Source: a virus. From it: DNA of 52,845 nucleotides. The stretch spans positions 1 through 52,845 of the IMG/VR virus record IMGVR_UViG_3300044825_001160. The stretch is one strand, 5' to 3'. The translations under genes were made by a program, and so were the position numbers. Each line of letters begins with the position of its first letter. The stretch's first letter is position 1. Shown here in pieces: positions 13,199-40,200 of this stretch. The notes beneath the pieces were generated by a model. That model searched no databases and was not told the origin of the DNA. It saw only the letters and a program-made list of their open reading frames with translations.

Positions 13199-13219
13199 GT
13201 TCTGCCACCCTGTCAGAAT
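13199..13219. repeat. Palindrome family, copy 1 (degenerate)
   Basis: GTTCTGCCA and TGTCAGAAT flank a 3-base centre. It is preceded by TAGC and followed by GG, as in the other copies. It carries two departures from the consensus half-sites (C for A at base 7, T for C at the end). It lies 88 bases upstream of the ATG at 13307. Confidence 0.75.
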
Positions 13220-13306
13220 GGTCTAGAGCTTGACTAAACGAACGACGGCGCTCAATCTGCACTTACCGGATGGCATGTCGCCGCCGGCAATAGTGGAGAT
13301 ACAGTC

Positions 13307-14020
13307 ATGACTAAGTCGAAAGTAGCAACGGCCATGGGCATCCGCACGATGCAGGACTGCGCCATCGCGGTAGATACCGCTGCCACGCTGGAAGGCAGCG
13401 CGATCGAGTACCTGAGGACCAAGGGTGTGCTCCCTCGCGGGAACGCGAAGGGTGAGACGGCAGAGGAATACACGTCCTACCTCACGGGCTTCGAGCCCGA
13501 CAAGGGGCTCGCGGACGAATTCCGTTCGCACCTCGGCGTGATCATGGCCACGCGCCGGGATCGCGAGCACGGGGAGCGCCGCTACGCTCGCACAAAGGAC
13601 GGAAAGGTCCGGCGTGCGACAGGCAAGGACAAGGACGAAGCCTGCTTTGTCTTGTCCGCTGTGGCCGCGTTCACGCGTGATCAAGAGACGATCACGGCGC
13701 TCCCCGGCTCGCGTGGTGACCTCACCACGGAGAAGGGTTTGTGGTGGGCCGAGCGTAAGACGGTGCAGGATGGCGTCGCACAGCGCTTCGGACGGCTGAA
13801 GAGTGCGGCGGGTGTCTTCATCGACGCCACGGGCAAGACAACGCGGGGCACTCGCGCATCGAACAAGAGCGTGGGTGAGATCCTCGCCGAGGCGCACGGT
13901 CGCGTAATCAAGCGCTGCCGCAGCGAAGGATGCGCACCATGGGAGGAGGTGCAGAAGGTACTCAAGGATGCCGAGCAGCGCATCGCAGCGCTGGTCGATG
14001 CACGCAAACTGGACGCGTGA
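13307..14020 (+). CDS. Unknown early protein, 237 aa
   Basis: This is the first gene of the early arm. The product starts MTKSKVATAMGIRTMQDCAI and is basic and largely helical, with Lys/Arg-rich stretches (ATRRDREHGERRYARTKDGK, RRATGKDKDE) and a later KTTRGTRASNKSVGEILAEA. The C-terminal helix (EEVQKVLKDAEQRIAALVDA) could dimerise. I do not recognise a family. Basic charge, first position and the palindrome just upstream make it a candidate DNA-binding regulator, but no HTH is clearly visible. The start has the leader GGAGATACAGTCATG, shared word for word with the gene at 15411. A terminator follows at once, so it forms a single-gene transcript. Confidence 0.75.
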   Translation: MTKSKVATAMGIRTMQDCAIAVDTAATLEGSAIEYLRTKGVLPRGNAKGETAEEYTSYLTGFEPDKGLADEFRSHLGVIMATRRDREHGERRYARTKDGKVRRATGKDKDEACFVLSAVAAFTRDQETITALPGSRGDLTTEKGLWWAERKTVQDGVAQRFGRLKSAAGVFIDATGKTTRGTRASNKSVGEILAEAHGRVIKRCRSEGCAPWEEVQKVLKDAEQRIAALVDARKLDA

Positions 14021-14025
14021 CTGAC

Positions 14026-14055
14026 GGGGCGGGCCGCGAGGCTCGCCCCTTTTTT
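14026..14055 (+). terminator. Rho-independent terminator
   Basis: GGGGCGGG (14026-14033) pairs with CTCGCCCC (14042-14049), including one G-U pair, and is followed by six T. It directly follows the stop codon of the gene at 13307. Confidence 0.85.
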
Positions 14056-14072
14056 AACCTAGGAGGACTGAT

Positions 14073-14282
14073 ATGGACGCAAGAACACAAGGGCAGCTAT
14101 ACGGGCTGCTCGTCTCATGGATCAACTACGGGGTAGACAACGGGGCGGACGAAGAGACTGCCGCCATTGCGTACAGGCTGGCAGTGGAACTCCTCCCGGA
14201 TAGGGAGGTGGCCGGACCAGAATTGACGGAAGATGAGCGCCGGTTTTTTGAGATCCTCGCCGAGGAAATGCGGCGCGACTGA
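14073..14282 (+). CDS. Small acidic early protein, 69 aa
   Basis: The product starts MDARTQGQLYGLLVSWINYG and is acidic and helical (ETAAIAYRLAVELLPDREVA, EDERRFFEILAEEMRRD). A TAGGAGG ribosome site precedes the ATG at a good distance. It sits alone between two terminators, with no promoter of its own that I could see, so it may be expressed by read-through. Small acidic proteins in early phage leaders often bind host enzymes; that is speculation here. Confidence 0.7.
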   Translation: MDARTQGQLYGLLVSWINYGVDNGADEETAAIAYRLAVELLPDREVAGPELTEDERRFFEILAEEMRRD

Positions 14283-14289
14283 TCTCAAC

Positions 14290-14324
14290 GGGGTGGGGGC
14301 CACGCGGCTCCCGCCCCTTTTTTT
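14290..14324 (+). terminator. Rho-independent terminator
   Basis: GGGGTGGG (14290-14297) pairs with CCCGCCCC (14310-14317) through one G-U pair, with GCC/GGC pairing inside, and is followed by seven T. It ends the short leader transcript before the long non-coding stretch. Confidence 0.85.
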
Positions 14325-14336
14325 GGCCCTTTGAAA

Positions 14337-14473
14337 CCAGTTCCCAGCGCGAGCGCGCTCGCCCGCCACCACGCAGCCCACCGCGTACGCCTTGTCTAGC
14401 CCAGCCCACTAAGTAGCATTCTGACAGCGTGTCAGAACGGTGCCCATGATGCCAGTTCCTAGCGCGAGCGCGC
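14337..14473 (+). repeat. Direct repeat of a 22-base GC-rich module
   Basis: Copy 1 is at 14337-14358 and copy 2 at 14452-14473; each begins CCAGTTCC and continues AGCGCGAGCGCGC, with one difference (C/T). Each copy is followed by a palindrome of the GTTCTGACA family (80 bases and 43 bases between start points), so the module and the palindrome appear to have been duplicated together. Confidence 0.75.
14418..14438. repeat. Palindrome family, copy 2
   Basis: ATTCTGACA and TGTCAGAAC flank the centre GCG. It is preceded by TAGC and followed by GG. It differs from a perfect arm only at the first base. Confidence 0.85.
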
Positions 14474-14494
14474 CCAGCGTGGCCGCTAAATAGT

Positions 14495-14515
14495 GTTCTG
14501 ACAGCGTGTCAGAAC
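14495..14515. repeat. Palindrome family, copy 3
   Basis: GTTCTGACA and TGTCAGAAC form perfect 9-base arms around GCG. It is preceded by TAGT and followed by GA. It is the second palindrome in the duplicated module. Confidence 0.9.
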
Positions 14516-14556
14516 GAGATGGTTTAGAATATCGAGATTTTAGCTGGTCAGCTCAT

Positions 14557-14641
14557 TTAGTACGGTTAATCGCGTAAGTTTAACCTGTTCCGGACGCATT
14601 ACCTGACAAACAGGTGCGAGAAGTCGGTATGACCGTACTAA
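14557..14641. repeat. Inverted repeat enclosing a hairpin
   Basis: TTAGTACGGT (14557-14566) and ACCGTACTAA (14632-14641) form a perfect 10-bp outer stem. Inside, CGC and ACCTG pair with CAGGT and GCG around an ACAAA loop, with ATT bulged, near 14594-14618. The whole could fold as a small structured RNA or as a DNA cruciform. No known RNA family was recognised. Confidence 0.5.
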
Positions 14642-14699
14642 TTTAGATTTTGGTTAAAAAACGATCAATTTAGCAAAAACGTGGTACTTTTTGGCAAAA

Positions 14700-14758
14700 A
14701 TCCTGTTCCATTAGTAAAGCGCCGTTCCAGAAAATTAAGTGTACTTATGGAACAGGAT
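14700..14758. repeat. 12-bp inverted repeat
   Basis: ATCCTGTTCCAT (14700-14711) and ATGGAACAGGAT (14747-14758) are exact reverse complements separated by 35 bases. Each arm contains the GGAAC motif of the cluster. Confidence 0.7.
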
Positions 14759-14857
14759 TAAACTTAACTGTACTCTGCAAGTCGCTAAGTTATTGATTTT
14801 CACTTTGTTTCGGGGGTCAACTTTACTAATGAAAAGTGCCGCTTATACTATTTTCGA

Positions 14858-14999
14858 GTTTTGTTCCGTTGTTCCAGCGTTTTTAGAGGGGGGGAACCCC
14901 CGCGCATTTTCGCGAGGTCTTGGAACAAGACTGTACAAATGGCAGCAAGTGTGCAGGGGTCGTCCCCTCTCCAAAATCGCTGGAACAACGGAACAAAAC
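14858..14999. repeat. 142-base element bounded by 22-bp inverted repeats
   Basis: The 22 bases at 14858-14879, which begin GTTTTGTTCC, are exactly reverse-complementary to 14978-14999, which end GGAACAAAAC. The pairing continues inward with three mismatches to about 36 bp per arm. The loop contains a further small hairpin (GTCTT...AAGAC around 14918-14932). No target duplication is evident at the edges, so a mobile element is not supported. A large stem-loop at an origin or a transcribed structure are the alternatives. Confidence 0.65.
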
Positions 15000-15072
15000 A
15001 AAAAAATAAATATAACTTTATATCTTATATATATAGTTACATTTTTCTACTCTAACAAAATCAATCACTTAC
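15000..15072. other. AT-rich stretch (possible unwinding element)
   Basis: Positions 15000-15040 are nearly pure A/T with a TATATATATA core, unlike the GC-rich genes on both sides. A 16-base word starting AAAATCAATCACTTAC (15057-15072) recurs with one change at 15195-15210, and CCTGCCCAAATC is tandemly repeated near 15217-15240. It adjoins the GGAAC cluster. Confidence 0.45.
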
Positions 15073-15287
15073 AAGCCCCCTCATTTTTTCATTAACCCAG
15101 TTAGAGACAAACCCTGTTCCATAAGTCCAACTATTTTTCTGGAACGGCCGGAACGGCTGGAACAGCCCTTTACTAATTACCCTTAGTTTTCAATAAAATC
15201 AAACACTTACCTCTCCCCTGCCCAAATCCCTGCCCAAATCCCCCTAAATTCTCATTTTTTCGTTGTCTATCTTTCGTACCTAACCTC

Positions 15288-15318
15288 TTGCAATAAGTAC
15301 AGTATTGTGAGACAATAC
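15288..15318 (+). promoter_or_regulatory. Promoter overlapped by an operator-like palindrome
   Basis: TTGCAA (15288-15293) and GACAAT (15311-15316) are 17 bases apart; each matches the sigma-70 consensus at 4 of 6. The palindrome GTATTGT-GAG-ACAATAC (15302-15318) covers the spacer and the -10 box, the classic geometry of a repressor site that blocks polymerase. It would drive the GP88 operon starting at 15411. Confidence 0.55.
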
Positions 15319-15360
15319 GAAACATGGGGAAGCACCTAGTTACCGCTTCTCCTAGATAGC

Positions 15361-15381
15361 GTTCTGACACGGTGTCAGAAC
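15361..15381. repeat. Palindrome family, copy 4
   Basis: Perfect 10-base arms GTTCTGACAC and GTGTCAGAAC surround a single central base. It is preceded by TAGC and followed by GG. It starts 45 bases beyond the -10 box at 15311-15316 and ends 29 bases before the ATG at 15411. Confidence 0.95.
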
Positions 15382-15410
15382 GGAGTAATCATTCAGTAGG
15401 AGATACAGTC

Positions 15411-16121
15411 ATGCGATACCTCGCAATCGGCAACAACGCCAAGACCGTGAAGTCAGACCAAGGCGGCGAGTACCTCACCGCGATCATGTACCTCGCCCCC
15501 GCCGACACGGTGCCGGGCATCAATCTCTGCCCGATGGCAGAACTTGCCCAGTGCAAGGCTCCCTGCCTGTTCTCCGCAGGACGCGGCGCGTTCGCATCCG
15601 TTCAGGATGCCCGGGTTGCCAAGACGATTGAATTCCGCGACGACCGCGAGGCGTTCATGCTTCAGCTTGTGGCAGACATCCGCACGGCACGGCGCAAGGC
15701 AAACAGGCTCGGGGTCAAGTTGGCCGTGCGCTTGAATGGCACGTCGGACATTGCATGGGAGAACGTGATGTTCTGGTACGGGGACCGCTACCTGAACCTG
15801 ATGGAGCTTTTCCCTGATGTGCAATTCTACGACTACACCAAGCTCCCGGGCAGGAAAGTCCCTGCCAACTACCATCTGACCGTGAGCTACTCGGGCGCGA
15901 ACGCAGCCTATGCGAAGAAGACAAGCAAGACCCCGCACAACATCGCTGTGGTCTTCTCGGGCGCGCTCCCTGCCACCTACCTTGGCAGGCCTGTGATCAA
16001 TGGGGACAAGGACGACTTGCGCTTCCTCGACCCGGCAGGCGTGGTCGTCGGCCTCACAGCCAAGGGCAAGGCAAAGAAGGACACCTCGGGCTTCGTCATT
16101 CGTCTGCAGGAGGTTGCGTGA
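15411..16121 (+). CDS. GP88-family early protein, 236 aa
   Basis: The product starts MRYLAIGNNAKTVKSDQGGE. It shows the features I know from the phage 'gene product 88' family: a conserved Cys cluster near residue 40 (NLCPMAELAQCKAPCLFSAG), then AVRLNGTSDIAWENV, LFPDVQFYDYTKLPGR and YHLTVSYSG. The family is widespread in phages and of unknown biochemical role; the Cys residues may bind metal. I chose the ATG at 15411, which has AGGAG and the leader GGAGATACAGTC. Upstream in-frame starts fall inside the palindrome. It is the first gene of an operon of tiny coupled genes and is controlled by the promoter/operator at 15288-15381. Confidence 0.8.
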   Translation: MRYLAIGNNAKTVKSDQGGEYLTAIMYLAPADTVPGINLCPMAELAQCKAPCLFSAGRGAFASVQDARVAKTIEFRDDREAFMLQLVADIRTARRKANRLGVKLAVRLNGTSDIAWENVMFWYGDRYLNLMELFPDVQFYDYTKLPGRKVPANYHLTVSYSGANAAYAKKTSKTPHNIAVVFSGALPATYLGRPVINGDKDDLRFLDPAGVVVGLTAKGKAKKDTSGFVIRLQEVA

Positions 16122-16300
16122 TGAGCATGTCAGAGATCATCCAGAGCTATTACAAGCGTGGTTTCCGCCTCATCCACGAGGCCGAGCATGCGTACGAGGA
16201 CGGGCATGGTGTGGAGGTAGTGCTCCAGCGTCTTGGCACGCTGGTGTGCATTCGCGAGCCCCTGCAGGGTTACATCATCGTCGAGGAGGACTACGCGTGA
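16121..16300 (+). CDS. Small early protein, 59 aa
   Basis: The product starts MSMSEIIQSYYKRGFRLIHE and ends QGYIIVEEDYA. It is a mixed alpha/beta acidic peptide with no known family. The ATG overlaps the GP88 stop codon by one base, and a GGAGG site lies within the end of GP88, so translation is coupled. Possible host-takeover factor by position only. Confidence 0.7.
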   Translation: MSMSEIIQSYYKRGFRLIHEAEHAYEDGHGVEVVLQRLGTLVCIREPLQGYIIVEEDYA

Positions 16301-16383
16301 GCAGGACATATCACAACCGGAAGGACAACAAAAAGCGGCGTGCGCTCACGCGCAAGCTGCGCAACCGCAAGGAGAAAGTGTAA
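16297..16383 (+). CDS. Tiny basic peptide, 28 aa
   Basis: GTG at 16297 overlaps the preceding TGA (GTGA), and the stop overlaps the next ATG (TAATG). The peptide starts MSRTYHNRKDNKKRRAL and continues with Lys/Arg-rich sequence: well over a third of its residues are Arg or Lys. It could bind nucleic acid. Tight fusion on both sides argues that it is a real gene despite its size. Confidence 0.55.
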   Translation: MSRTYHNRKDNKKRRALTRKLRNRKEKV

Positions 16384-16556
16384 TGGACGCTAAATCTGAT
16401 GGTTTGGTGTGGTTCGTCAAAGGCGCAGAGGAAGAGGGGTGCTTTACCACAAAAACAGGGGCAGAGGCTTTCGCCCGCATGATGTTTCAAGACGAAGACC
16501 CAAGCACTCGCTATGCCCGCATCTACTACCGCAATCTTTGGAAATTGGAAGCATGA
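16383..16556 (+). CDS. Small early protein, 57 aa
   Basis: The product starts MDAKSDGLVWFVKGAEEEG and contains FTTKTGAEAFARMMFQDED and YARIYYRNLWKLEA. The pattern strand-helix-strand suggests a small alpha/beta fold. The start is coupled to the peptide upstream (TAATG). No family recognised. Confidence 0.65.
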   Translation: MDAKSDGLVWFVKGAEEEGCFTTKTGAEAFARMMFQDEDPSTRYARIYYRNLWKLEA

Positions 16557-16900
16557 GCAAGCACGGGGAACAGGACATGAGCTACAGAGACGTGAACTAC
16601 AACAAGATCGGCCTTGCACACAACCCGGAGCCGCCCGATCCCGGGCCGAGCGAGGAGGAGCGGATCGAGTACAAGTACAGCCAGATCCGGGACAGCGAGT
16701 GGCACATCGACCGGTGCTTTGAGGGTGATGAGAAGCTGGTAGCCCATCTTGCGCGCTTGCTCGCTCACTACCGTGAGCACCCGGGGGGAGACCTGCGCCC
16801 CATCGTGGACGCATTGAACGAGTGGCTGGACAGTGAACTGTGGGAGTACGCCAAGATCATCGTGTCTGAGCGTAACAAGCGTGGCGACTATGACTTCTAA
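16553..16900 (+). CDS. Unknown acidic early protein, 115 aa
   Basis: The start ATG at 16553 overlaps the previous stop (ATGA). The protein starts MSKHGEQDMSYRDVNYNKIG, has a Pro/Glu-rich linker (NPEPPDPGPSEEERIEYKYS), and then a helical C-terminal half (EKLVAHLARLLAHYREHPGG, DALNEWLDSELWEYAK). No family recognised. A second ATG (MSYRDV) with a GGA-type site lies 8 codons downstream and could also be used. Confidence 0.65.
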   Translation: MSKHGEQDMSYRDVNYNKIGLAHNPEPPDPGPSEEERIEYKYSQIRDSEWHIDRCFEGDEKLVAHLARLLAHYREHPGGDLRPIVDALNEWLDSELWEYAKIIVSERNKRGDYDF

Positions 16901-16910
16901 GGAGATTGAT

Positions 16911-17129
16911 ATGAGCGACTACAACACGACCAAGCACGCGAGCCGCTGCACCTACCTGCAGGACGGGGTCTACCCGCACTGCGACTGTGGCGTGCGTGAC
17001 CGGGGCATTGAGATGTTCGCCAAGGCGATGGGCGGGATCTCCATCGAGCAGGCAGAAGAGATGCTCTCGACCATCGACAGCGTGATGGGCAGGCTGTTCA
17101 CCGGCAGGGACAAAGAGGAGGAGGTGTGA
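16911..17129 (+). CDS. Small Cys/His-rich protein, 72 aa
   Basis: The product starts MSDYNTTKHASRCTYLQDG and continues VYPHCDCGVRDRG. Cys13, Cys23 and Cys25 with nearby His residues could form a zinc site. The rest is a short helical segment (SIEQAEEMLSTIDSVMGRLF). An AAGGAG ribosome site precedes the ATG. No known family. Confidence 0.65.
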   Translation: MSDYNTTKHASRCTYLQDGVYPHCDCGVRDRGIEMFAKAMGGISIEQAEEMLSTIDSVMGRLFTGRDKEEEV

Positions 17130-17332
17130 TGGAGATGAACGCATTCGCTGTCATTTGTATCGCTGTGGGTGGGTTCTTCGTTATCGACGGGGCGCGGGCG
17201 CTACTACTGGCGAGGGGGAGGCGGCGCATCACCGACCTGTCCTTCCGTAGCCCCGACCCTGCCTGTATGCGCCTTGGCGAACGGATGGAGCGGCAGGCGG
17301 ACTACGTGCGCCGAGTCGAGCGGCAGGGGTGA
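17129..17332 (+). CDS. Small membrane protein, 67 aa
   Basis: The N-terminal segment NAFAVICIAVGGFFVIDGA (about residues 4-22) is a single hydrophobic helix. It is followed by a basic region (LLLARGRRRITDL) and a soluble Arg-rich tail, so it probably sits in the inner membrane with the tail in the cytoplasm. The ATG overlaps the previous TGA by one base. The function is unknown; superinfection exclusion is one role known for such early membrane proteins, not shown here. It is the last gene before the next promoter. Confidence 0.65.
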   Translation: MEMNAFAVICIAVGGFFVIDGARALLLARGRRRITDLSFRSPDPACMRLGERMERQADYVRRVERQG

Positions 17333-17370
17333 GCGGGCTAGCTCGCTAGCTATCTTTCGTAAACAAATAC

Positions 17371-17399
17371 TGGACATACGAGAGACGATGGCCTACAAT
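17371..17399 (+). promoter_or_regulatory. Strong sigma-70-like promoter
   Basis: TGGACA (17371-17376) and TACAAT (17394-17399) each match consensus at 5 of 6 bases with an ideal 17-base spacer. It would start transcription near 17406. A small hairpin (TGGCAGT at 17408-17414 with ACTGCCA at 17424-17430) lies at the start of the transcript, followed by palindrome copy 5. It drives the DUF3150-MoxR-VWA module. Confidence 0.75.
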
Positions 17400-17441
17400 G
17401 GGAACCATGGCAGTTCGGTCTGGACTGCCAGTTGAGATAGC

Positions 17442-17462
17442 GTTCTGACACCGTGTCAGAAC
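17442..17462. repeat. Palindrome family, copy 5
   Basis: Perfect 10-base arms GTTCTGACAC and GTGTCAGAAC surround a single central base. It is preceded by TAGC and followed by GA. It begins 43 bases beyond the -10 box and ends 45 bases before the ATG at 17508. Confidence 0.95.
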
Positions 17463-17507: not shown

Positions 17508-18440
17508 ATGGACACAGCAATGACGTTGACTGCACCGGAACACATCACCTCGCTTCGCAGCGCGGCCATACTGGTGTGCGCCAAGGTGACCTCGACCACG
17601 GGGTCCAAGACTGACCGGGGCGAGGGGCTCGACCTCGCTGCCCGCCGGGGCGCGGAGAGCAACACCGTGGACGTGGTGAAGAAGCTTTTCGCCCGCTGCA
17701 CTGAGCACCGTGAGTTGCAGAACGTGCGCCAGACCGTGAACAACGGCATGAAGCGGTTCACGTTCGACTGGGCCGGGGACTGGCGCATGCTGCCCATGTC
17801 CCGCTATGCGGAGTTCATGGAGTGGTGGACTGAGGTGGTCAACCTGCACACGCTGCGCAAGCAGGCGTTCATCGAGGCGTACCCCTCCATCCGGGCAGAC
17901 GCAGCGTTCAGCTTGGGCGATCTGTTTGAGGAGGCGGACTTCCCCCCGGTGGAGCATGTGGCTGCCAAGTTCACGATCAACCTGTACAAGCAGGACGTGC
18001 CGACCGGGGACTTCCGCAATCAGATCGCTGAGGACTTGGCAGATGATCTGCACAAGCACTACGTGATCCAGACCCGGGAGTTGGTGCAGTCCATCGTGGA
18101 CGAGCAGATGGCGCAGTTCGTCTCGGTCATGCAGTCCATCGTGCACTGCTGCGGGTACGACACCAAGGAGAACAAGCAGGGCGAGACAGTCATCGTGCGC
18201 CGTCGCCTGCACGAGGGGACACTGCAGCGTGCGTTGGAGATGTGCGAGACCTTCCGGCGGTTCAACCCGGCAGGGTCCAGCGAGTTGGAGGCTGTGCGCG
18301 GTGAGTTGGAGCAGGTGCTGCGCTCGGTGGACAACATCGACACGCTGCGTGAGTCGGAGACCTTGCGCGCTCGGGTGAGCGGCGAGGTGGGTAGCATCCT
18401 CAGCAAGTTCAAGCTCGGTGGCTTGGGGGAGGGGGAGTAA
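17508..18440 (+). CDS. DUF3150-family protein, 310 aa
   Basis: The product starts MDTAMTLTAPEHITSLRSAA; I chose the ATG at 17508, 7 bases after GGAG. The N-terminal third (LRSAAILVCAKVTSTTGSKT, ESNTVDVVKKLF) and the long helical remainder match the character of DUF3150 proteins. These are known in phages and bacteria as neighbours of MoxR/CobS-type ATPases and VWA proteins; their biochemical role is unknown. The C-terminal half is coiled-coil-like (SELEAVRGELEQVLRSVDNI). It is the first gene after the 17371 promoter and the 17442 palindrome. Family assignment comes from sequence style plus the conserved neighbourhood. Confidence 0.7.
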   Translation: MDTAMTLTAPEHITSLRSAAILVCAKVTSTTGSKTDRGEGLDLAARRGAESNTVDVVKKLFARCTEHRELQNVRQTVNNGMKRFTFDWAGDWRMLPMSRYAEFMEWWTEVVNLHTLRKQAFIEAYPSIRADAAFSLGDLFEEADFPPVEHVAAKFTINLYKQDVPTGDFRNQIAEDLADDLHKHYVIQTRELVQSIVDEQMAQFVSVMQSIVHCCGYDTKENKQGETVIVRRRLHEGTLQRALEMCETFRRFNPAGSSELEAVRGELEQVLRSVDNIDTLRESETLRARVSGEVGSILSKFKLGGLGEGE

Positions 18441-18518: not shown

Positions 18519-19613
18519 ATGACGACCAACAACTTCGCGACCAACATTGCCCCGCTCACCATCAGCGAGTGTGCGCGGCTGATCCGTACCGTGGGCGAGC
18601 ATGTCACGGTGTACATCGAGAGCGAGCCGGGCTGCGGCAAGTCCAGCATCCTCAAGGTCTTGGCCGAGCAGATGGGTGACGCCTACGAGTACGTCTACCT
18701 CGACTGCCCGACGCTGGGCGATGGCGACCTCGGGATGAACATCCCCAACCGGGAGACGGGGCAGTTGGAGTTCTTCGTCTCCAGCCTGCTGAAGCTCGAC
18801 GCGGGCAAGCCCGTGGTCATCATGGCGGACGAGGTGGCCAAGATGAGCAACCTGCTCAAGGTCATCATCACGCGTCTGTTCCTTGAGCGTGCCATCGGTG
18901 ATCGCGTCCTGCCTGCCGGGAGCATTGTCTTCGCTACGTCCAACCACGGGTCGGACGGCGTGGGCGATACGCTGCAGGCGCACATCGGCAACCGCATCAT
19001 GCGTGTTGAGATGGCCAAGCCAGATCACAAGTCATGGTGTGCATGGGCCGGTGAGCATGGCGTGAGCGCGCTCACCCGTGCGTGGGTGACGATGAAGCCC
19101 AAGGCACTGCACAGCTACCGCCACATCACGGCGGAGGAGTTGCGCGACAACGAGTTCATCTTCAACCCCAGCCGCCCGGTGACTACGTTCGTCTCGCCGC
19201 GCTCGCTGGAGAAGGCGGACGTGGTGGTGCGCAACCGTGACATCCTCGGTGACACGGTGACCAAGACGGCGCTCGCGGGTGTCGTCGGTGCTGCAGCAGC
19301 CGAGAGCATGGCGATGTTCTTCAAGCTGGAGAAGGACCTGCTCCCCATCTCGGCGATCCTGCGTGACCCGGAGGGCATTACGCTTCCCACGCAGGTGGGT
19401 GCGTTGCTCATGACGCTGTTCAACGCAGTCGACGAGTTGGAGACGCAGGACCAACTGGTCAAGTTCATGCGCTTCACGGCGCGGCTCGACAGTGAGGAGT
19501 TCCGGGCGGTGTTCTTCACCATGCTCTGCGAGTCCAAGCGTACGGCGCGCATGGCCATGCAGAACGCTGAGGTGAAGGCGTGGTACTTGGCCAACCACAA
19601 GCTGGTCTCGTGA
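18519..19613 (+). CDS. MoxR/CobS-like AAA+ ATPase, 364 aa
   Basis: The N-terminal AAA+ domain shows Walker A at residues 36-42 (EPGCGKS), Walker B at 99-105 (VVIMADE) and sensor 1 in FATSNHG (138-144). The segment DCPTLGDGDLGMNIPN between Walker A and Walker B is the MoxR/CobS style. The C-terminal half is helical (MAMFFKLEKDLLPISAIL, DSEEFRAVFFTMLCESKRTA). MoxR ATPases work with VWA-domain partners as remodelling chaperones or metal-insertion factors. The partner here is most likely the 19866 product. CobS annotation in phages should not be read as proof of cobalt chelation. Confidence 0.9.
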   Translation: MTTNNFATNIAPLTISECARLIRTVGEHVTVYIESEPGCGKSSILKVLAEQMGDAYEYVYLDCPTLGDGDLGMNIPNRETGQLEFFVSSLLKLDAGKPVVIMADEVAKMSNLLKVIITRLFLERAIGDRVLPAGSIVFATSNHGSDGVGDTLQAHIGNRIMRVEMAKPDHKSWCAWAGEHGVSALTRAWVTMKPKALHSYRHITAEELRDNEFIFNPSRPVTTFVSPRSLEKADVVVRNRDILGDTVTKTALAGVVGAAAAESMAMFFKLEKDLLPISAILRDPEGITLPTQVGALLMTLFNAVDELETQDQLVKFMRFTARLDSEEFRAVFFTMLCESKRTARMAMQNAEVKAWYLANHKLVS

Positions 19614-19623
19614 GGAGTCAGCC

Positions 19624-19863
19624 ATGGACAAGACCAAGACAGTACTTGTGGAGCGGTTTCCGAGGTGGCCAAAAAGCACGAGGAGGATAGTACTTGTAGA
19701 GATCAAGCAGACGTACGGGGTAGAGCGCATCTACCCCCGCAATGCGACGGCGGAACATTTCACAAGTTTAACTGGACAGAAAACGCTGAGCCGGGATACG
19801 CTCCGGATCGTGCGTGAGTTGGGCTTTGAAGTGCAGTTAGTTAAACAAGTCATGGAGTTTTGA
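19624..19863 (+). CDS. Small unknown protein in the MoxR module, 79 aa
   Basis: The product starts MDKTKTVLVERFPRWPKSTR and is basic in its first half, then helical (TLSRDTLRIVRELGFEVQLV). It lies between the ATPase and VWA genes, 10 bases after the ATPase stop. A GAGG site precedes the ATG. The region SRDTLRIVRELG could be a small DNA- or protein-binding helix pair. No family recognised. Confidence 0.6.
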   Translation: MDKTKTVLVERFPRWPKSTRRIVLVEIKQTYGVERIYPRNATAEHFTSLTGQKTLSRDTLRIVRELGFEVQLVKQVMEF

Positions 19864-19865
19864 TC

Positions 19866-21098
19866 ATGAGCGCAGCCATCGACATCAAGGCGCAAGCCGA
19901 GCTTCGCATCAAGCGGGCACACATCCGCCTGATGCGTCATGAACTGACCTACTACTACAGCGGTGTCATGCTGCTGGGTAACACGGTTGTGGACATGACC
20001 ACGCCCACGGCATGCACTGACGGGCTCAACGTGTGGTTCGGTGCAGACTTCATCATGTCACTGTCTGAGGCAGAGGTGGCCGGTGTTGTGCTGCACGAGC
20101 ACCTCCACAAGTTCCTGAAGCACCTGCCCCGCCACCGTGACCTGATGAAGGAGAACGGACGGCTGGCCAATGCAGCCATGGACTACGTGGACAACAGCAT
20201 CATCAAGGGGATCGAGCGTGCGACCAACGGCACACTGCTGGCGCTCCCTGCGTGCGGGCTGTATGACGAGACGTTCGACAACTGGTCGGTGCGTGAGATC
20301 TACAACTTCTTGAACAAGTGTGAGCAGCAGCCCCAAACGGGTGATGACGACAACAGCAGCGACAGCGTCAAGGACGGCAACGGCAAGTCATACCGTGTCT
20401 CCACGCAGGACGAGCATGACGTGGACGCAGTCGATGGGATGGACGCTGACCAGATCGAGGAGTTGGGTCAGCAGATCGACGACGCCATCCAGCAGTCAGC
20501 CCTGCTCGCCGGGTTGACGGGTGCCAAGCTGCCGCGTGCGATCACTGAGCTTCTGCAGCCAGAGGTTGACTGGGTTGCTGAGTTGCGTGAGTTCATGCAG
20601 TCCCATATCAAGGGCAGCAGCGAGCACACATGGCGCAAGTTCAACCGCCGCCGCATCGTGGACGATCTGTATCGCCCGGGTACATACACCGAGCGGATGG
20701 GCCGTGTGCTTGTCGCCATCGACACGTCGGGCTCGATCAGCAACCAGCAGTTGGCGCGGTTCGGCGGGGAACTGGCATCAATCTGCGAGCAGTGCCGCCC
20801 GGACGAGATGCAGGTGTTGTGGTGGGATACGCAGGTGCATGGTATGCAGCAGTTCGATGAGTCGAGCTACGCCAACATCCGCACCATGCTGAAGCCCATG
20901 GGGTTCGGTGGTACTCGGGTCGGTTGTGTCAGTGACTACATCAAGTCCAACAACATCGACGCCGACTGCCTTGTGGTGTTCACAGATGGCTATGTCGAGT
21001 CACCGGTCGCGTGGGACATCACGCTGCCGACATTGTGGGTTGTGGTGGGCAACGAGTCATTCGTTCCGCCGCGTGGCGTCAAAGTGAAGTTCAAGTAA
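19866..21098 (+). CDS. Metallopeptidase-like/VWA-domain protein (DUF2201 type), 410 aa
   Basis: The N-terminal part has a zinc-peptidase-like HEHLH at residues 77-81 inside VAGVVLHEHLHKFLKHL, as in the putative metallopeptidase domain of DUF2201 proteins. After an acidic linker (about 155-205, SSDSVKDGNG, DVDAVDGMDADQIEELGQQ), the C-terminal part is a VWA-like domain. It has an intact metal-ion site start, AIDTSGS (D286, S288, S290), and the later VFTDG. VWA proteins pair with MoxR ATPases, one of which is encoded two genes upstream. The ATG at 19866 has a GGAG site. The substrate is unknown. Both metal sites look intact, so it may be active. Confidence 0.85.
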   Translation: MSAAIDIKAQAELRIKRAHIRLMRHELTYYYSGVMLLGNTVVDMTTPTACTDGLNVWFGADFIMSLSEAEVAGVVLHEHLHKFLKHLPRHRDLMKENGRLANAAMDYVDNSIIKGIERATNGTLLALPACGLYDETFDNWSVREIYNFLNKCEQQPQTGDDDNSSDSVKDGNGKSYRVSTQDEHDVDAVDGMDADQIEELGQQIDDAIQQSALLAGLTGAKLPRAITELLQPEVDWVAELREFMQSHIKGSSEHTWRKFNRRRIVDDLYRPGTYTERMGRVLVAIDTSGSISNQQLARFGGELASICEQCRPDEMQVLWWDTQVHGMQQFDESSYANIRTMLKPMGFGGTRVGCVSDYIKSNNIDADCLVVFTDGYVESPVAWDITLPTLWVVVGNESFVPPRGVKVKFK

Positions 21099-22168: not shown

Positions 22169-22461
22169 CTGCGGAAGCAAAGGTTAAGAAGCGGGTGAAG
22201 GAAGTTCTCAACGCACTCGGAGCGTACTACGCCATGCCTGCCACGGGTGGGTATGGTTCCTCCGGAGTGCCGGACTTCCTTGTCTGCTACAAAGGAAGAT
22301 TCATCGGAATCGAATGCAAGGCGGGTAAGGGTAAGACCACCGCCTTGCAGGAGAAGAACCTGCGCCTGATACAGGAGGCAGGAGGCGAAGCGTTCGTAGT
22401 GAACGAAGACAATGTAACCACACTGAAGTCCATCATGGAGAGTTTGTATGAGCAAGAGTAA
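22165..22461 (+). CDS. VRR-NUC-type nuclease, 98 aa
   Basis: A short PD-(D/E)xK nuclease: GVPDF (D37) and IGIECKAG (E50, K52) form the catalytic triad, followed by a Gln (ALQEK) and VVNEDNV. Length and motif order match stand-alone VRR-NUC domains found in phages, which cut branched or structured DNA. The start ATG overlaps the previous stop (ATGA). Residues at the active site are intact. A resolvase-like role in replication or recombination is likely from family knowledge. Confidence 0.9.
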   Translation: MTAEAKVKKRVKEVLNALGAYYAMPATGGYGSSGVPDFLVCYKGRFIGIECKAGKGKTTALQEKNLRLIQEAGGEAFVVNEDNVTTLKSIMESLYEQE

Positions 22462-22843
22462 AACGACAAAGACCAGCAAGATCCAGTCGATGCTGAGTCG
22501 CGGGATGAAGCCCCGGGCGATTGCCGAGAAGCTGGGTATCCCAGTATCCAGCGTGTATCAAGTGAGCTACCGCATGAAGAACGGCACGCCGAAGCCCAAG
22601 GCCAAGCCGAAGGCCAAGCCTGAGCCGGTTGTAGTTGAGGTAGAGAAAGTACAAGAGGTAGACATGGTCAACCATCCCCCGCATTACACGGTCGGCGGAA
22701 TTGAGACCATCGACTTCATCGAGGCGAAGGGTCTTGGGTATCTGCTTGGCAACGTGGTCAAGTACGTGTCTCGCGCAGCCCACAAGGGTGGCGTCGAGGA
22801 TCTCAAGAAGGCCAAGTGGTATCTGGAGCGGGCAATCGGATGA
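22448..22843 (+). CDS. HTH plus DUF3310 (T7 gp1.7-like) protein, 131 aa
   Basis: The N-terminal 45 residues contain a helix-turn-helix-like stretch (MLSRGMKPRAIAEKLGIPVSS). A Lys/Pro linker (TPKPKAKPKAKPEPVVVEV) leads to a typical DUF3310 domain: VNHPPHYTVGGIETIDFIEA, GNVVKYVSRAAHKGG and EDLKKAKWYLERAI. DUF3310 is the domain of T7 gp1.7, a nucleotide kinase. Fusion to a HTH is seen in other phages. It overlaps the nuclease gene by 14 bases. Enzyme activity is from family knowledge. Confidence 0.85.
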   Translation: MSKSKTTKTSKIQSMLSRGMKPRAIAEKLGIPVSSVYQVSYRMKNGTPKPKAKPKAKPEPVVVEVEKVQEVDMVNHPPHYTVGGIETIDFIEAKGLGYLLGNVVKYVSRAAHKGGVEDLKKAKWYLERAIG

Positions 22844-30849: not shown

Positions 30850-31161
30850 ATGCCACGTCCGTATGGGGACAAACTACTGCGTAGCCTCCAGACAGCCGAG
30901 GAAGAAACCCTTGGTATCGAACTTGGTCGGGTGTGCGTGGCGGCGAATATACCTGCTGCCTACGTAGCGATTGCGCTGGAAGCCTCGCGAATGACGGTCT
31001 ACTCTTGGTTCCGTGGACAAGACATCCGCCGGAATCGACGCAAGATCGTCAGGACTCTTGTGGAACTCATGAAGCAAGACTTGGAGACCGGCATACTGCC
31101 CGCCAAGGATTACAACGCGGCGCGGCAATATATCGAGAGCCTAGCGGGAGTCAAAATCTAG
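30850..31161 (+). CDS. HTH DNA-binding protein, 103 aa
   Basis: The product starts MPRPYGDKLLRSLQTAEEET. Residues about 27-60 (VCVAANIPAAYVAIALEASR, then MTVYSWFRGQDIRRNRRK) form a convincing helix-turn-helix with recognition-helix residues MTVYSWFRG and a basic patch after it. It is the last gene before a strong terminator. It is the clearest stand-alone HTH repressor candidate and might bind the palindromes at 13199-17462 or 15302-15318; that is inference. Confidence 0.75.
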   Translation: MPRPYGDKLLRSLQTAEEETLGIELGRVCVAANIPAAYVAIALEASRMTVYSWFRGQDIRRNRRKIVRTLVELMKQDLETGILPAKDYNAARQYIESLAGVKI

Positions 31162-34053: not shown

Positions 34054-34252
34054 AGTCGTTGATAACGAGCCCGTATGGGGATTCCCGTTTGAGTGGATGA
34101 GCATAGGGGACAGCTTCTTCATCCCGACGCTGAAGCCGGAAGAGATGCTCTATGTCATAGATACCCGGGCCAAAGACGCCAAGGTCAAGATCAAGGCATT
34201 CATCACCCACAATGATGGGTGCCTTGGCGTCCGGGCATGGCGCGTGGCTTAG
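34043..34252 (+). CDS. Small phage protein at arm junction, 69 aa
   Basis: The product starts MEVEVVDNEPVWGFPFEWMS, then IGDSFFIPTLKPEEMLYVID and ends CLGVRAWRVA. This pattern (WMSIGDSFFIPT... GVRVWR) is found in small phage proteins next to replication genes, function unknown. It overlaps the primase end by 11 bases. Its stop codon (34250-34252) overlaps the stop codon of the opposite-strand giant gene. Confidence 0.75.
   Translation: MEVEVVDNEPVWGFPFEWMSIGDSFFIPTLKPEEMLYVIDTRAKDAKVKIKAFITHNDGCLGVRAWRVA
34175..34231. terminator. Nested inverted repeat at the convergence point
   Basis: GACGCCAAGG (34175-34184) and CCTTGGCGTC (34222-34231) form a 10-bp outer arm, and CACCCA (34204-34209) pairs with TGGGTG (34216-34221) inside. 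It lies in the coding end of the plus-strand gene, beside the overlapping stops. It could slow polymerases from both sides, but T-tracts are missing. Confidence 0.4.
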
Positions 34253-37200
34253 GGCTCGATACCCAACTCTTTCATGCTATCAACGGATGTCTTCATGATG
34301 GCATTGCGCTCTTGCCTGAGATAGCGCATGTCAGGCGCTTTCTCTTTGGGTGACAGACTCTTGTCTGCCTGAAGCGCACGCATCTCAGCCTGTATGTCTC
34401 GCAGATCACTGCCCGCAATCTGATCGAATATTTCTACGGCAAGTTCTGCATCCGGATTGCGCCGGGTGTACAGGTCATAAGCATCGAAGTTGTTTTGATT
34501 CTTAAAGGCATTCAAGATCGCACGGTGCTTGTCGATTTTCTTTTTGACATCGTAGTACTCACGCGGATCAACTTCGATCCGCTTGCCAATGAACATGTCC
34601 AGAGCAATCAGATCTTTCTTCGCATCGAAGTCTTTGCGTCCGGTCATGGTCAGGCCGAGCCCGTGGAGTTCATGCGCCATCTTGCCAATAGCATCGCCGT
34701 AGCTACTAACAAAGAAGTTTATGTTCTCAGGGCTCATTTTGTTGGGATCAACGGGCACGCCGATTTCGTTCCCAAACTCCACTACCGCCTGCGCTATCTC
34801 ATGGTAAAGCTCAGGCGTGAAGTCGCCGCCGGTATACGCCGCGCCGTACTTGTTCTCTTTGCTGATGTTGATCTCTCTGCCAAGCGCGTCCAGTCCCATC
34901 ATGAATTCCAGAACCGGGCGACCGACAGAAGGCATGGCAGTGGATAGGACAAATTCTCCGGGGTGTTCCAACGGGGAATAGCGCGGAACGGGAAGAGGCA
35001 GGAACGAATCAAGCCCGATAGGTATCGCGTTCTTTATCACATCAAGCAAAGAGTTTTGCCCTGTCAGAAGCGCCCCAAGTTGCGCACCGAGCGCGCCGAA
35101 AGCACCGATACCGAATCCCCACGGGATCTGAAGGAAGTCGTTCCGCTCCCCTGCAAACTTGACCGGCAGACGAAGGTTACGCACCCACATCGCCATGTCA
35201 TCGTTCTTGACTATATTGCGTCCTTCTTCGTCCTGCCCTGCCATCGACAGAGCTATTAAATACGACGCCACACCCACGCCGGTCAGAAAACCCATCATGA
35301 TCTTGGCGTTCTTCGCACGCCGTGCATGGTCAGCGAGGAAGGCTTGGCGTCCAGCTTCAGCTTGAGGGCTATCACCCTGCAGGGAAGGAGGCAGGAGTGG
35401 CAACAGATTCTCTGGCCGTTGGAATGCCGGAAGCAGTGCGTCAACTGCGCGAACGGCAGATGTCACTGAAGGACGCAGGAAGATGAAGACTGAGCCAAGC
35501 TGCCGACCGAACCGCCCCACCTGCTCGTAGTTGAATAGGTTCTTGGTGTAGGCCACCGCTTCTTGCTTGAGCGCGCTGCGTACTGCGGGGTCATTCAGGT
35601 TCTGCCCGTCATCCCGCGCTCGCGCCATCAGTTCATCGCGCACAACAGCGTACGCTGCAGCACGGCTGGTGAACTCAAACATGTCAGCCCATGTGCTGAA
35701 GACCTCATCTATCTTCATCTTTGCGCGGCCCAGTTTGCCCGCGCCAATCTGCTCCATCTGCGTCTCGATCTGCCCAGCAATGCTCAAGCTGTTGCTATAG
35801 GCACTGCGTCCACCCATCGAGATAAATTCGTAGATATCATTAACAAACGGGTTCTTAGCCGCCATGCTTTTGATCTTGGCGGTGTCTCCCTTGTGATAGT
35901 AATAAGCTACCTTGCCAGCACGAGCGAGACCCAGCGTGGCGACCTTGGCACTGATATTGGCGATAAACCTTGCAGCGGTCTTGGGGCCTAGCTCTGCCCC
36001 CATGTTCCATGCGTTCGTCAGGAAGTCTCGGACGAAGTTACCCGGGTGGAATCCAAGGTTATAGAACGTATGCTGCCGCCCGATGAATTGGGTAATGCTG
36101 TTCATCGCACGGAATCCCCAGTGCAAATCACTGGACAGACCGCGAATGGACTCCACGATACCGGGGTTCTTGATCTCCAGTATTTGCACGCTGCCGTCTG
36201 GCAGGTATGTAACGAGCTTGTTCCGCTTATCAAGAAGCTCTTTCTCGATCTTCTCGCGATCCGCAAACGGAATCGGCTTGTGTGGTTTGCCTGTGAGGTG
36301 CCCTTGTTTTATCTGGTTCTTAATTGCGTCAGTGATACCAACACGCGATGCGCGCCCCGCTGCCAGATGGGCATCGAGCATCAACTGATAGATCGGGTTT
36401 TCCGTCGAGGTTCTGCGACCAAGCGCCTTCATAGGCAACTGGGTAAAGGCTGATCCGAGCGGCTCTACGTTGGACAACTCGTACTTGAGATCCTGCGAAC
36501 CAACTTTGGTGCCGGATTTGATCATGCCTTTGTACGGTACATAGTTCTTGTACCCGTAGAACCACCGAACGCCATCGACCGCAGGGTTCCAGTAGTTCGC
36601 TTTGCGGTCCAGTTCAATAACAACTTCGTTTAGTTCTTCAATAGCTTTGAAGTATGCGTTGAGTTCTGCTTGATGCGGACTGTTCTTGATCGAATCCAAA
36701 ACGGTAGCAACTTCTCCCGCCTTAAACCCGCCCACCACGTCATAGGCCGGATGGTTCTGATCCAGATACTCAGGTCCGGACTTGGCTTTAACAGTAGGGC
36801 TGTCGCCACCTTCTTTGGCGTAGCGGGAGACAAGCGTCCGTAGCTGTTTCTGAAGACTCTCTGCCGTCGCTTTGTCTGGGCTGGAGTTCTTTGCCTGCAT
36901 GATTGCTTCACGGTAGGTAGCAGGGGTCATCGTCTGCGTGCCTACACGGAGCTTGGTCTGATTATCCAGCGGGACATTCTCAAGGAACTTCTGATAGCGC
37001 CGCTCCTGTTCATGGCGCGCTACGCTCATCGTGCCAAGGAGATCAGTCGCTTCATCGACAGAAAGGTTGTCTGCTTTGGAGAAAGCGGCGACAGCATTAC
37101 TGAGTTTGCGAACAGCCGGCTCGACTAGTTCTTTTACAAACTCATCTGCTTTGGTTGACGAGGTCGTCAACAAGTCATAGATGGCATTCGCATCAGGCCC

Positions 37201-40200
37201 ACTGAGCTTTAGTTTCCCGGCGCGACGTAGATTCTCATCGTGCCTTAGCAGGGGGCGAGCGTAGTTTTGGAAATCGCGGACAGTCTCCTCCCAACCTGTG
37301 TTGGTAAAGATCCGCCTGATGTGTTCGACAAACGCCGTCTTCTCACGCATCTGTTTGTACGGACGCGCATTGTCTGCCGCGATTTCTTCTACCGAACGCA
37401 TTCTGGCAGGGGGTGCCTGTATCCGACTGGGCTGTGCTTTCCGGCGTGCAGCAAGTGGATCAACGTCCATCCCGGCTTTGGGTACGGTCAGGATCTTGTC
37501 GGTAAGCTCAATCGTCTGCAGCAGGACATTGTCCAGACTACCTGCCGACATAACCCGTGTAGATAGCGGGCGTTGTGTTTGCGCGTACTTGTCCAGACCG
37601 AACATCCGCGCCACGGCCAACGTGAATGCCGACCATGCAGTGCGCGCTCTGGCAAAGAAGACCTCTGAGAGTGCAGGGATACGGACTTCAGCAAGACGCG
37701 CTTGGAACGCCGCGTCCGTCATCGCATAGGAAACAAACTCGTATATGTTCTCGTATACCTTCGGGTAGTCTTTGCCGATCTGATTCTTTGTTGCATCAAA
37801 GATCTTGTACAGAACCCCTGCTGCTTCACCTTGTTCTTGAGTGACTTGCCGTCCTGCCGCGTAATCGCGCAGTACCCGTACTGTAGCAGCGTGAACCATC
37901 TCATGCAGGATGGTTGTATCGGTCAAACCTTCTTCGGTGAAATAGAACGTGTTGGATCGCGGGTTGTACTCCGCTACCTTACCTTCCTTCTTGAGGCGCT
38001 CGATAACCGCCTGATGCGGCCCCTTGGCGGTTCCTTCAACGTGGATGCCTGCACCACCGAACGCTCTTTTACCCCACGTTACTGGAACCTGCTCTCCTTT
38101 CTTACCAGCCGAAAGGGGCTGGCCGAGCGATATCATCCGGCCACGAGTGCGCTCTATCGTGCTGCCTTTTGGCAGCGGCACCATCCGCTCATACTTGGGC
38201 TTGAACTTCTTTAAGAGTTTGGTTGCGTCTTCGCCAAGTTCTGACTTCTTGAGATCGAAGTCCGCATTAATACGGTCCTCTACTTCCCGCATCAATCTGG
38301 CGTAGTCGCTATTACCTCTCCGAATTCCGAGTTCTCGGGCAGCGCGGGCCTGTTCTTTTTTAATTATTTTAGAGCGGTCATCACGGCGTTCCACGACATT
38401 AAACAGGCGATCCGCCAGCCAGCGCAGGGGGGACATCTGACCCTGTATGACGCCGGTCATGCCGGTGCGCGCACCGCGAGTTTCTCCTCCCGCCTCTGTG
38501 GTCAGGACATAGAGCGCCCTACCAAGGTCTCCTTTACGCAGGGCATCCACGGCTCCTTCAGAGCGCGCAGGGGGAGCAGGAGGTTCTTCGGTTATGTCGA
38601 GCGCACGCGGGCCTTCAGCAGGGCGCGGCTGCACGGTGCTTTCAATCATCATGGTGCCGCTTGGCGGCTTGGCACCGGGGATTTCTTCCTGTGGAACAGG
38701 CGCTGCCTGCGCTCTTGGGCGGAGGTCGCCTTGGCCTTCAAACTGATACGGTACGTTTTCTTTGACTATCGGGGCTTCAGCTACGGGGGCCTCAACTGCA
38801 GGGACTTCAGCTAGTGCAACGTCTTTGACTACCGGGGCTTCAGCTACGGGGGCCTCAACCGCAGGGACTTCAGCTAGTGCAACGTCGCCTCTTCCTTCTG
38901 CAGGCACACCACCAGCAACGCCTTCGCCAATTCCTCCCATTCCGGTATCGATAGCTCCCGCAGTTCCGGCTCCAGCTTCTGCGCCGGGTTCGACAGGAAC
39001 AGCCACGCCTTTTCTACGAGTTCCCTTTCCACGTTTCTTCTCCGTAACGGGTACTTGTTCTGGAAGCTCGATGGGCGCGAGTTGGTAACCCTGTCCGGGT
39101 TTTACAGGCTTGATGATGTCGCCACGCTCAACAAGCTGGCGATGAATATCTCTTGCTTCTGTCAGTGTCCCGCCAAGGATATTTTTTATCCCCACAGGGT
39201 TAGGCGCTATGGTGCCTTCGCGGAGTTTTGCAAGCGCTTGATCAAGAAGGTTTACTTGGGGCGGTCCCTCAACCGCCTCAGCTACTTCTGCTACCTCAGC
39301 TACCTCAGCTACTTCAGGCGCAGCTTTTTCTTCTGCCTGTTCAACCGGTACATCTTCAGTAATCTCACCAAGGAGATCACCAAACGCAGGGCGAGCGGCT
39401 TCGGGTTGCGCTTCAGCGGCAGGGGCTTCGGCGGCGGGGGCCTCTTCTGTCGCCGGGGCAGCAGGTTCTGCGGCTGGGGTTTCTGCGGCTGCGACTTCTG
39501 TGGTTGTGGGCTGGGTGAGTTCAAATTTACGTCCCCTCTTCGCAATATCTCCACGCTCAACTAGCATCCCGTGGATGTTCTTCGCTTCATCCAGCGAAAG
39601 ATTCAGATCCTTGAGAGCCTTCTGGATACCGATGGGCGTCGGAGATTTGTTCTCTGTACGTAAGGCATTGAGGGCGTTATCCAGCAGGGCAGTGCGTTCA
39701 TCCAGCGTCCTGCGCGCACCTTGACGGTCTGAGATACCACCTACAACACCAACAGGAGACATCAACGCAGCCGCATATGCGGCATGGACATATTCGCCTA
39801 GTGCTTCATCACTGAACAATTCTTGGCCGGCTTGCGCCCGGGTAAGTAACTGCTGAGTAACTTCTGTCGGTACTTCAATAGCTGCAGTTAACGCCGTGCC
39901 CTTGCCTGCAGCCGCCAAAAGGCGTTGGCGAGCGAGCTTCTCCAACGCAGCGCGCTCTGCTTTACTCCCGGTCTCCAGTACCTGACCGAACTGTTTGCCA
40001 AGCAGCTTTCCAACCAGAACCTTACCGAAAGGAACGGCTGCAGCAGCAACATCCAACCCGGACTGTGCCGTAGCGGCGGCAAGTGCACGACCTTCTTGAA
40101 TATCAACCGGCTTGCCTTCCGCCTGCTGTACCGCTGCCTGCTGCTCGATGTTGCTGCCGTACTGGCTTGGGAGGATGGACAGCACACTGCCCGCTACTGC

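Follow-up and report, generated by a model that had tools for sequence, protein, structure and literature searches.

Repeated palindromes in the early region of an environmental phage genome: candidate operators apparently changing in step with a fast-evolving early protein

Palindrome copies and their surroundings

The virus record IMGVR_UViG_3300044825_001160 (positions 1-52,845; this 52.8-kb stretch, analysed at its full length, is called the window here) has its early genes on the plus strand (13.3-34 kb) and its late genes on the minus strand, and the first part of its early region holds the element considered in this work, a palindrome with the core TTCTGACA-N3-TGTCAGAA. A scan tolerating up to three mismatches finds five copies, all within 13199-17462 (0.01 expected in shuffles), and none in the rest of the whole record, while an unbiased search of the window for repeated palindromes returns only this five-copy family. 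The arms are perfect (9 + 9) in three of the five copies (14495, 15361 and 17442), the copy at 14418 deviates at one base (A for G, base 1) and that at 13199 at two (C for A, base 7; T for C, base 21); every copy is preceded by TAG plus a pyrimidine and followed by G plus a purine.

A first-pass annotation, made from the sequence alone, had listed these five copies with their flanks and had seen no others, with all of which our scans agree. It had also named numerous copies inside coding regions, or a lack of conservation in related phages, as observations that would speak against a control site: no copy in the window is coding, and relatives do keep the sites (see below). Its statement that all copies lie upstream of early transcription units holds for those at 13199 (gene at 13307), 15361 (GP88 gene at 15411) and 17442 (DUF3150 gene at ~17508), but not for those at 14418 and 14495, which lie just past the terminator at 14290-14317 with the next gene ~0.9 kb further on.

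The genes, promoters and terminators around the copies are given in Table 1. Sites 3 and 4 each lie downstream of a sigma70 promoter and ahead of the Shine-Dalgarno sequence of an early operon, and sites 2a and 2b border an AT-rich repeat region on its left. Both early promoters also have, exactly 9 bp 5' of the -35 element, an identical 12-mer, CTATCTTTCGTA (15267-15278 and 17350-17361; read by eye), which is possibly an activator or UP-like element.

Table 1. Palindrome copies and neighbouring features in the early region of the window (aa, amino acids; ORF, open reading frame).
Feature	Position	Strand	Remark
Site 1, GTTCTGCCACCCTGTCAGAAT	13199..13219	+	two deviations; leader of gene A; TAGC on the 5' side
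Gene A, 237 aa, first early gene	13307..14020	+	fast-evolving family; candidate site-binding protein
Intrinsic terminator after gene A	14026..14049	+	
Small early ORF, 69 aa	14073..14282	+	
Intrinsic terminator after the small ORF	14290..14317	+	
Site 2a, ATTCTGACAGCGTGTCAGAAC	14418..14438	+	one deviation; past the terminator, left of the origin-like region; TAGC on the 5' side
Site 2b, GTTCTGACAGCGTGTCAGAAC	14495..14515	+	left edge of the origin-like region; TAGT on the 5' side
AT-rich non-coding region with GTTCC/GGAAC repeats	14520..15285	.	probable replication origin, judged from repeats and position
Sigma70-like promoter TTGCAA-17-GACAAT	15288..15316	+	44 bp before site 3; read by eye, not reported by the promoter scan
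Leader hairpin 1, between promoter and site 3	15326..15352	+	
Site 3, GTTCTGACACGGTGTCAGAAC	15361..15381	+	leader of the GP88 early operon, ATG 30 nt on; TAGC on the 5' side
GP88-family early gene (PF17338)	15411..16121	+	downstream of site 3
Sigma70-like promoter TGGACA-17-TACAAT	17371..17399	+	42 bp before site 4; reported by the promoter scan
Leader hairpin 1, between promoter and site 4	17408..17430	+	
Site 4, GTTCTGACACCGTGTCAGAAC	17442..17462	+	leader of the DUF3150-MoxR-VWA operon, ATG ~46 nt on; TAGC on the 5' side
DUF3150-like early gene	17508..18440	+	downstream of site 4
MoxR-like AAA ATPase	18519..19613	+	DUF3150 operon
DUF2201/VWA-like protein	19860..21098	+	DUF3150 operon

Conserved placement, lineage-specific sequence

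A pattern scan of viral contigs for the core, in which true relatives were recognised through protein similarity, yielded two of these: G009 and a phage represented by both G004 and G006 (phage M). DNA polymerase and helicase identities to the window are 63-71% for G009 and 47-54% for M, those of the DUF3150 protein 36% and 20%, respectively, and in M the terminase and portal are 52-56% identical; some replication proteins are at 27-41%. Phage M has TTCTGACA-N3-TGTCAGAA ahead of its gene A, the equivalent place in G009 not being visible because the contig begins within 30 bp of that gene; in both phages the core is also found to the left of the origin-like region and, on the far side of it, in the leader belonging to the first early operon; a fourth place precedes the DUF3150 operon in M and an earlier early gene in G009. 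At three of its four places M has tandem site pairs, 18 bp apart, and comparable sigma70 promoters (read by eye) lie ~45-55 bp before the leader sites of both phages. The copies of the window, G009 and M flank an AT-rich region of 0.6-0.85 kb on both sides, the short repeats of which, found at the same place, are themselves lineage-specific (GTTCC in the window, 14520-15285; GTTCTA in G009; TTGCAACC in M). The TTCTGACA core was not found in nine isolated or assembled relatives with portals ~30-45% identical, and single-protein searches for related loci gave no result. The portal proteins of the phage group have relatives in HTVC023P-type pelagiphages, roseophages, and Caulobacter and Alcaligenes phages.

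Eighty loci fetched through an alignment of the AAA ATPase (42-62% identity) contained no TTCTGACA sites, and many of them bear a repeated palindrome of their own: under strict settings (8-bp arms) a family of at least three copies was seen in 24 of the 80 loci vs. none of 80 block-shuffled controls, a lower bound, since such arms miss the lineages with 6-bp ones. Allowing 6-bp arms makes further loci positive (e.g., L147, L149, L192, L196 and L199), with L196 and L199 having four copies at the four standard places. Examples of these lineage palindromes are TCCTGACA-N-TGTCAGGA, GCGTATTA-N2-TAATACGC, TTCTGGGA-N3-TCCCAGAA, TTTCAC-N6-GTGAAA, TTCCAC-N6-GTGGAA, ATCGGA-N4-TCCGAT and TTCAGG-N4-CCTGAA, the outer bases often being TTC...GAA. 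Dozens of further relatives have sites placed in the same way but with another palindrome, specific to the lineage; orthologous leaders show promoter, hairpin 1, site and Shine-Dalgarno sequence in register while the sequence of the site varies by lineage (the L180 leader is without a site). A Shine-Dalgarno-preceded ATG follows within 60 nt in 37% of 198 copies vs. 13% of positions picked at random in the same stretches. Many lineages also have an AT-rich 7-mer (approximately TWWnTWA) 4-10 bp from the site, on its 5' side only, which is a wider version of the TAG noticed in the first-pass annotation and lends the sites a direction.

Half-sites in DNA rather than stems in RNA

The manner in which copies depart from perfect symmetry was analysed in 180 non-coding palindrome copies. 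Of 117 positions deviating on one side, 103 (88%) form neither a Watson-Crick nor a G-U pair, so that pairing is not kept through compensatory or G-U changes as would be expected of an RNA leader element, and the 14 G-U pairs (12%) compare with 16.7% for random changes. Deviations on both sides occur at 14 positions, eight of them Watson-Crick pairs where independence would give 3.7, and hence some compensation or joint drift exists; the bulk pattern is nevertheless that of half-sites read in duplex DNA. Because the deviations are mostly one-sided and not G-U, the sites look like the DNA half-sites of a dimer and not like RNA stems, and the same direction is indicated by a central spacer that varies from 0 to 6 between lineages, half-sites that are kept while it does so, a near-constant total length of 16-20 bp and the tandem overlapping sites of M. 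The palindrome is thus very probably a DNA site for a dimeric protein, as had been preferred to an RNA hairpin in the first-pass annotation on account of the nearly absent loop.

The alternative most worth weighing is that the palindrome acts in the mRNA, as a hairpin 5' of the Shine-Dalgarno sequence with leader hairpin 1 as its partner, in translation, mRNA stability or antitermination. Leader copies do lie between promoter and Shine-Dalgarno sequence, often 4-30 nt before the latter and its ATG, the AT-rich 5' flank is directional, and both window leaders fold as two RNA hairpins (hairpin 1 and the palindrome) better than shuffles do (z -2.6 and -3.1). This is also the layout of HK022 put and lambda nut, two hairpins in an early leader just past the promoter with terminators downstream, which the window leaders share. 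Unlike in put and nut, however, the second element here is a palindrome of fixed sequence, found outside leaders too, whose mutations are mostly uncompensated; within a phage it is the stem whose sequence is fixed and the loop that varies, some copies lie past terminators and outside any evident leader, and the tandem M sites, overlapping at an 18-bp distance, cannot all form hairpins. With the one-sided deviations and the constrained total length pointing the same way, and no Rfam match in the window at E<=1, a role as an mRNA hairpin seems unlikely.

The protein that accompanies the site type

In a set of up to 31 non-redundant phages, with half-site types assigned by eye, half-site similarity was correlated with gene A distance (rho 0.24, or 0.26 when controlling for AAA distance; 2/300 permutations) and showed no correlation with the distances of the DUF3150, AAA, VWA, VRR-nuclease or DNA polymerase proteins. 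In 29 of 35 phages the half-site is identical or almost identical to that of the phage closest in gene A, compared with 21-23 of 35 when closeness is taken from other proteins and 15 of 23 for the nuclease.

The AAA and DUF3150 proteins of L196 are nearest to those of ATCGGA/TTCGGA-type phages (AAA distance 0.23), whereas its gene A is nearest to that of TTTCAC-type phages (0.52 vs. 0.91) and its four sites, TTCCAC-N6-GTGGAA, are of that latter type: L196 is clearly a natural recombinant in which gene A and the sites have switched together. L208 provides a second, weaker case, which rests on one clear site. Between GCGTATTA and TCCTGACA phages the gene A families are mutually unrelated while other genes have been exchanged at 85-98% identity. 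Identities reach 88% for the VRR nuclease, 85% for the HTH_23/DUF3310 protein, 76% for cluster 4 and 98% for other small proteins, and early genes exchanged in this way cannot be what fixes the site type.

On these grounds the HTH_23/DUF3310 protein (22448-22843 in the window), the VRR nuclease and the small zinc-protein-like cluster 4 were rejected as binders, all being exchanged between phages with different sites. The DUF3150, AAA and VWA proteins were rejected too, as they are up to ~90% similar across phages with different sites, the closest such pairs differing by one site base. Among the binders proposed in the first-pass annotation, the 13307 product (gene A) emerges as the best supported through its linkage to site type and L196, while the protein at 30850 is disfavoured, having no detectable relative in phage M, which keeps the sites. 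In L158, L160, L168, L170, L181, L183 and L192 there are two gene A copies in tandem that have diverged from each other.

An AlphaFold model of the main gene A family (35 aligned sequences) has a mean predicted local distance difference test score (pLDDT) of 89.5 and shows, in order, three helices, a three-stranded sheet, two short helices, a long helix and two more helices. The window gene A, aligned with its relatives, gives a similar order of elements at a pLDDT of 79.3 and likely belongs to the same family. Gene A found no convincing match in Pfam, PHROGs, the PDB or BFVD (the models being compared with the PDB and viral models by Foldseek).

Discussion

The reading favoured here, and on comparative sequence evidence a reasonably probable one, is that the palindromes are DNA operators of a dimeric early regulator encoded by the phage itself, with the gene A product as the leading candidate. 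That the binder is phage-encoded seems quite probable, and that it is the gene A product has, as judged from linkage, somewhat better than an even chance. The candidate protein would occupy the five operators as a dimer and, as its own leader holds a site, might regulate itself; in the two main early operons a dimer bound ~42-44 bp past the -10 element and ahead of the Shine-Dalgarno sequence would obstruct early elongation, so that early transcription would be turned down or timed as the protein accumulates. It is about an even call whether repression by such a roadblock is the net effect. The copies beside the origin-like region could limit transcription into the origin or couple transcription to replication. 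The apparent co-variation of the sites with a single fast-evolving early protein points to a kind of switch for early phage genes that has not been described before.

Several observations weigh against this reading. Neither gene A model matches a known DNA-binding fold, and the window, M and G009 have a common site core, yet their gene A products show no similarity to each other by phmmer. The link of the window gene A to the main family has an hhalign E of 0.001 at a probability of 8%, and otherwise draws on a similar order of secondary-structure elements from a shared alignment. L198 combines TTTCAC sites with a distant gene A, and cluster 5, another fast-evolving protein (without a known family and not found in the window), reaches a rho of 0.28 before AAA distance is held. 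The assignment of half-site types by eye and the two-hairpin folds of the window leaders belong here as well.

Rather than early genes, the sites might primarily organise the origin, bound by a replication or partition protein, with early-gene regulation being secondary. The copies on both sides of the AT-rich repeat region in the window, G009 and M are what such a role would leave; relatives' copies, however, recur before early genes kilobases away, the presumed origin repeats differ in sequence from the palindromes, and a ParB_N domain, as a ParB-parS system would have, was not found in four records searched with positive controls. We consider an origin organiser improbable, slightly more so than the mRNA hairpin.

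Less probable still is that a host regulator of the TetR/AcrR family, used by the phage as a sensor, has its operators in these sites. The sequence KTTCTGACANNNTGTCAGAAM occurs in 93 GTDB genome stretches vs. ~15 expected (our own estimate from collection size), several of which adjoin TetR-like genes and others precede acyl-CoA dehydrogenase-like or heme oxygenase-like genes, all gene names at these loci being readings of N-termini. The core and symmetry of the phage sites are thus identical to those of presumed operators at several bacterial genes, TetR-like regulators included, but the phage sites lie in leaders and beside an origin-like region, their type follows a phage gene across recombinants, and relatives place copies before the Shine-Dalgarno sequences of several genes in one operon. 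Since no TetR_N domain was found in seven phage records (no match over the cut-off, controls positive), the bacterial matches are read as a similar operator type and not as proof of a host regulator. The bacterial loci themselves, with TTTCTGACA-N3-TGTCAGAAA before acyl-CoA-dehydrogenase-like genes (actinobacterial) and a heme-oxygenase-like gene (Amycolatopsis) in L053, L057, L059, L070, L074, L104 and L065, suggest a conserved TetR-type regulon.

The first idea considered, suggested by the 3-nt loop and the MoxR/VWA genes (MoxR-like ATPases and VWA genes are both found in N4-like phages), was that of hairpin promoters serving a virion RNA polymerase, like those of phage N4. The ~9-bp stem and position before early genes would suit it, but the good sigma70 promoters upstream of the leader sites and a virion-region protein of 2139 aa without a polymerase match (the RNA_pol family search having no positive controls) make it barely tenable. 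That protein (34249-40668, minus strand), which is without a family match, has a HEMVHA metallopeptidase-like motif.

Comparison with known systems

Among described systems, the proposed operators of an early regulator would, by analogy, work most like the stoperators of Cluster A mycobacteriophages (L5, Bxb1, Trixie), which are asymmetric 13-bp sites of temperate phages bound by a monomeric immunity repressor; they are dispersed, have a lineage-specific consensus varying with the repressor, and include a site at the repressor gene proposed to serve autoregulation (PMC6550527, PMC9283540). Dispersed sites, one of them at the candidate regulator gene and predominantly in one orientation to transcription, are common to both, as would be, if gene A is the repressor, a motif that diverges along with it. 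In contrast to stoperators, the sites described here are palindromes of 16-21 bp in which only the AT-rich 5' flank is directional, those of the window are limited to the early zone, and gene A resembles no known repressor. A tyrosine integrase was found neither in the window nor in seven related records (E<=1, controls positive; serine integrases were not searched), and for this reason, along with the palindromic nature of the sites, the sites do not belong to the stoperator class.

The start-associated sequences (SAS) and extended start-associated sequences (ESAS) of Cluster K are the other obvious comparison: these are inverted repeats that recur directly ahead of start codons, with a subcluster-specific consensus and unknown function, the ESAS comprising a pair of imperfect 17-bp repeats, mostly 4-13 bp apart, and usually tied to GGGATAGGAGCCC (PMC3203893, PMC12699233). 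Inverted repeats before gene starts, in the proportion given above, and a lineage-specific consensus are shared with ESAS; the SAS GGGATAGGAGCCC itself has no match in the window with up to two mismatches.

A full-text literature search, incomplete in its coverage, turned up no publication on sites of this kind in the phage group, and a paper on the CRP-901 group mentions neither palindromes nor promoters. While operator sets co-varying with their repressor are already known from temperate mycobacteriophages, a comparable arrangement is seen here in a large environmental phage group in whose searched records no tyrosine integrase was found, and is linked to a protein family without a known fold match. 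If gene A does bind, dozens of natural operator-protein pairs would be at hand for work on genome-wide changes of specificity, and the control of early genes in this phage group would be opened to study. A more far-reaching and tentative proposal, which we would sooner doubt than adopt, is that gene A is the first known example of a novel family of phage DNA-binding regulators with a fold of its own, whose specificity diversifies fast while all of its dispersed operators change in step, giving rise to mutually blind regulatory (possibly superinfection-immunity) types in widespread phages in which no tyrosine integrase was found.

Further palindrome-bearing loci

Some of the relatives' loci have a GC-rich conserved non-coding stretch of ~500-600 nt with 3-5 lineage palindromes (L151 at ~2.6-3.4 kb, L156 at 5.2-5.9 kb, L157 at 1.3-1.9 kb and L190 at 5.4-6.1 kb), which looks like a large structured RNA; no Rfam match was found. 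Beyond these loci, TACTAGTC-N-GACTAGTA is present in eight exact, dispersed copies in ctpbd312 (MW202545). Similar repeated palindromes also occur in isolates, which could make the arrangement testable: Alcaligenes phage vB_Af_QDWS535 (OK172329) has ten copies of TCCTAAYRTTAGGA, mostly in one region (42.8-48.1 kb), and the Synechococcus/Planktothrix phage MinM2 (OQ594354) has ~38 copies of CGGTTCAG-N-CTGAACCG genome-wide (up to three mismatches), a number of them directly before start codons.

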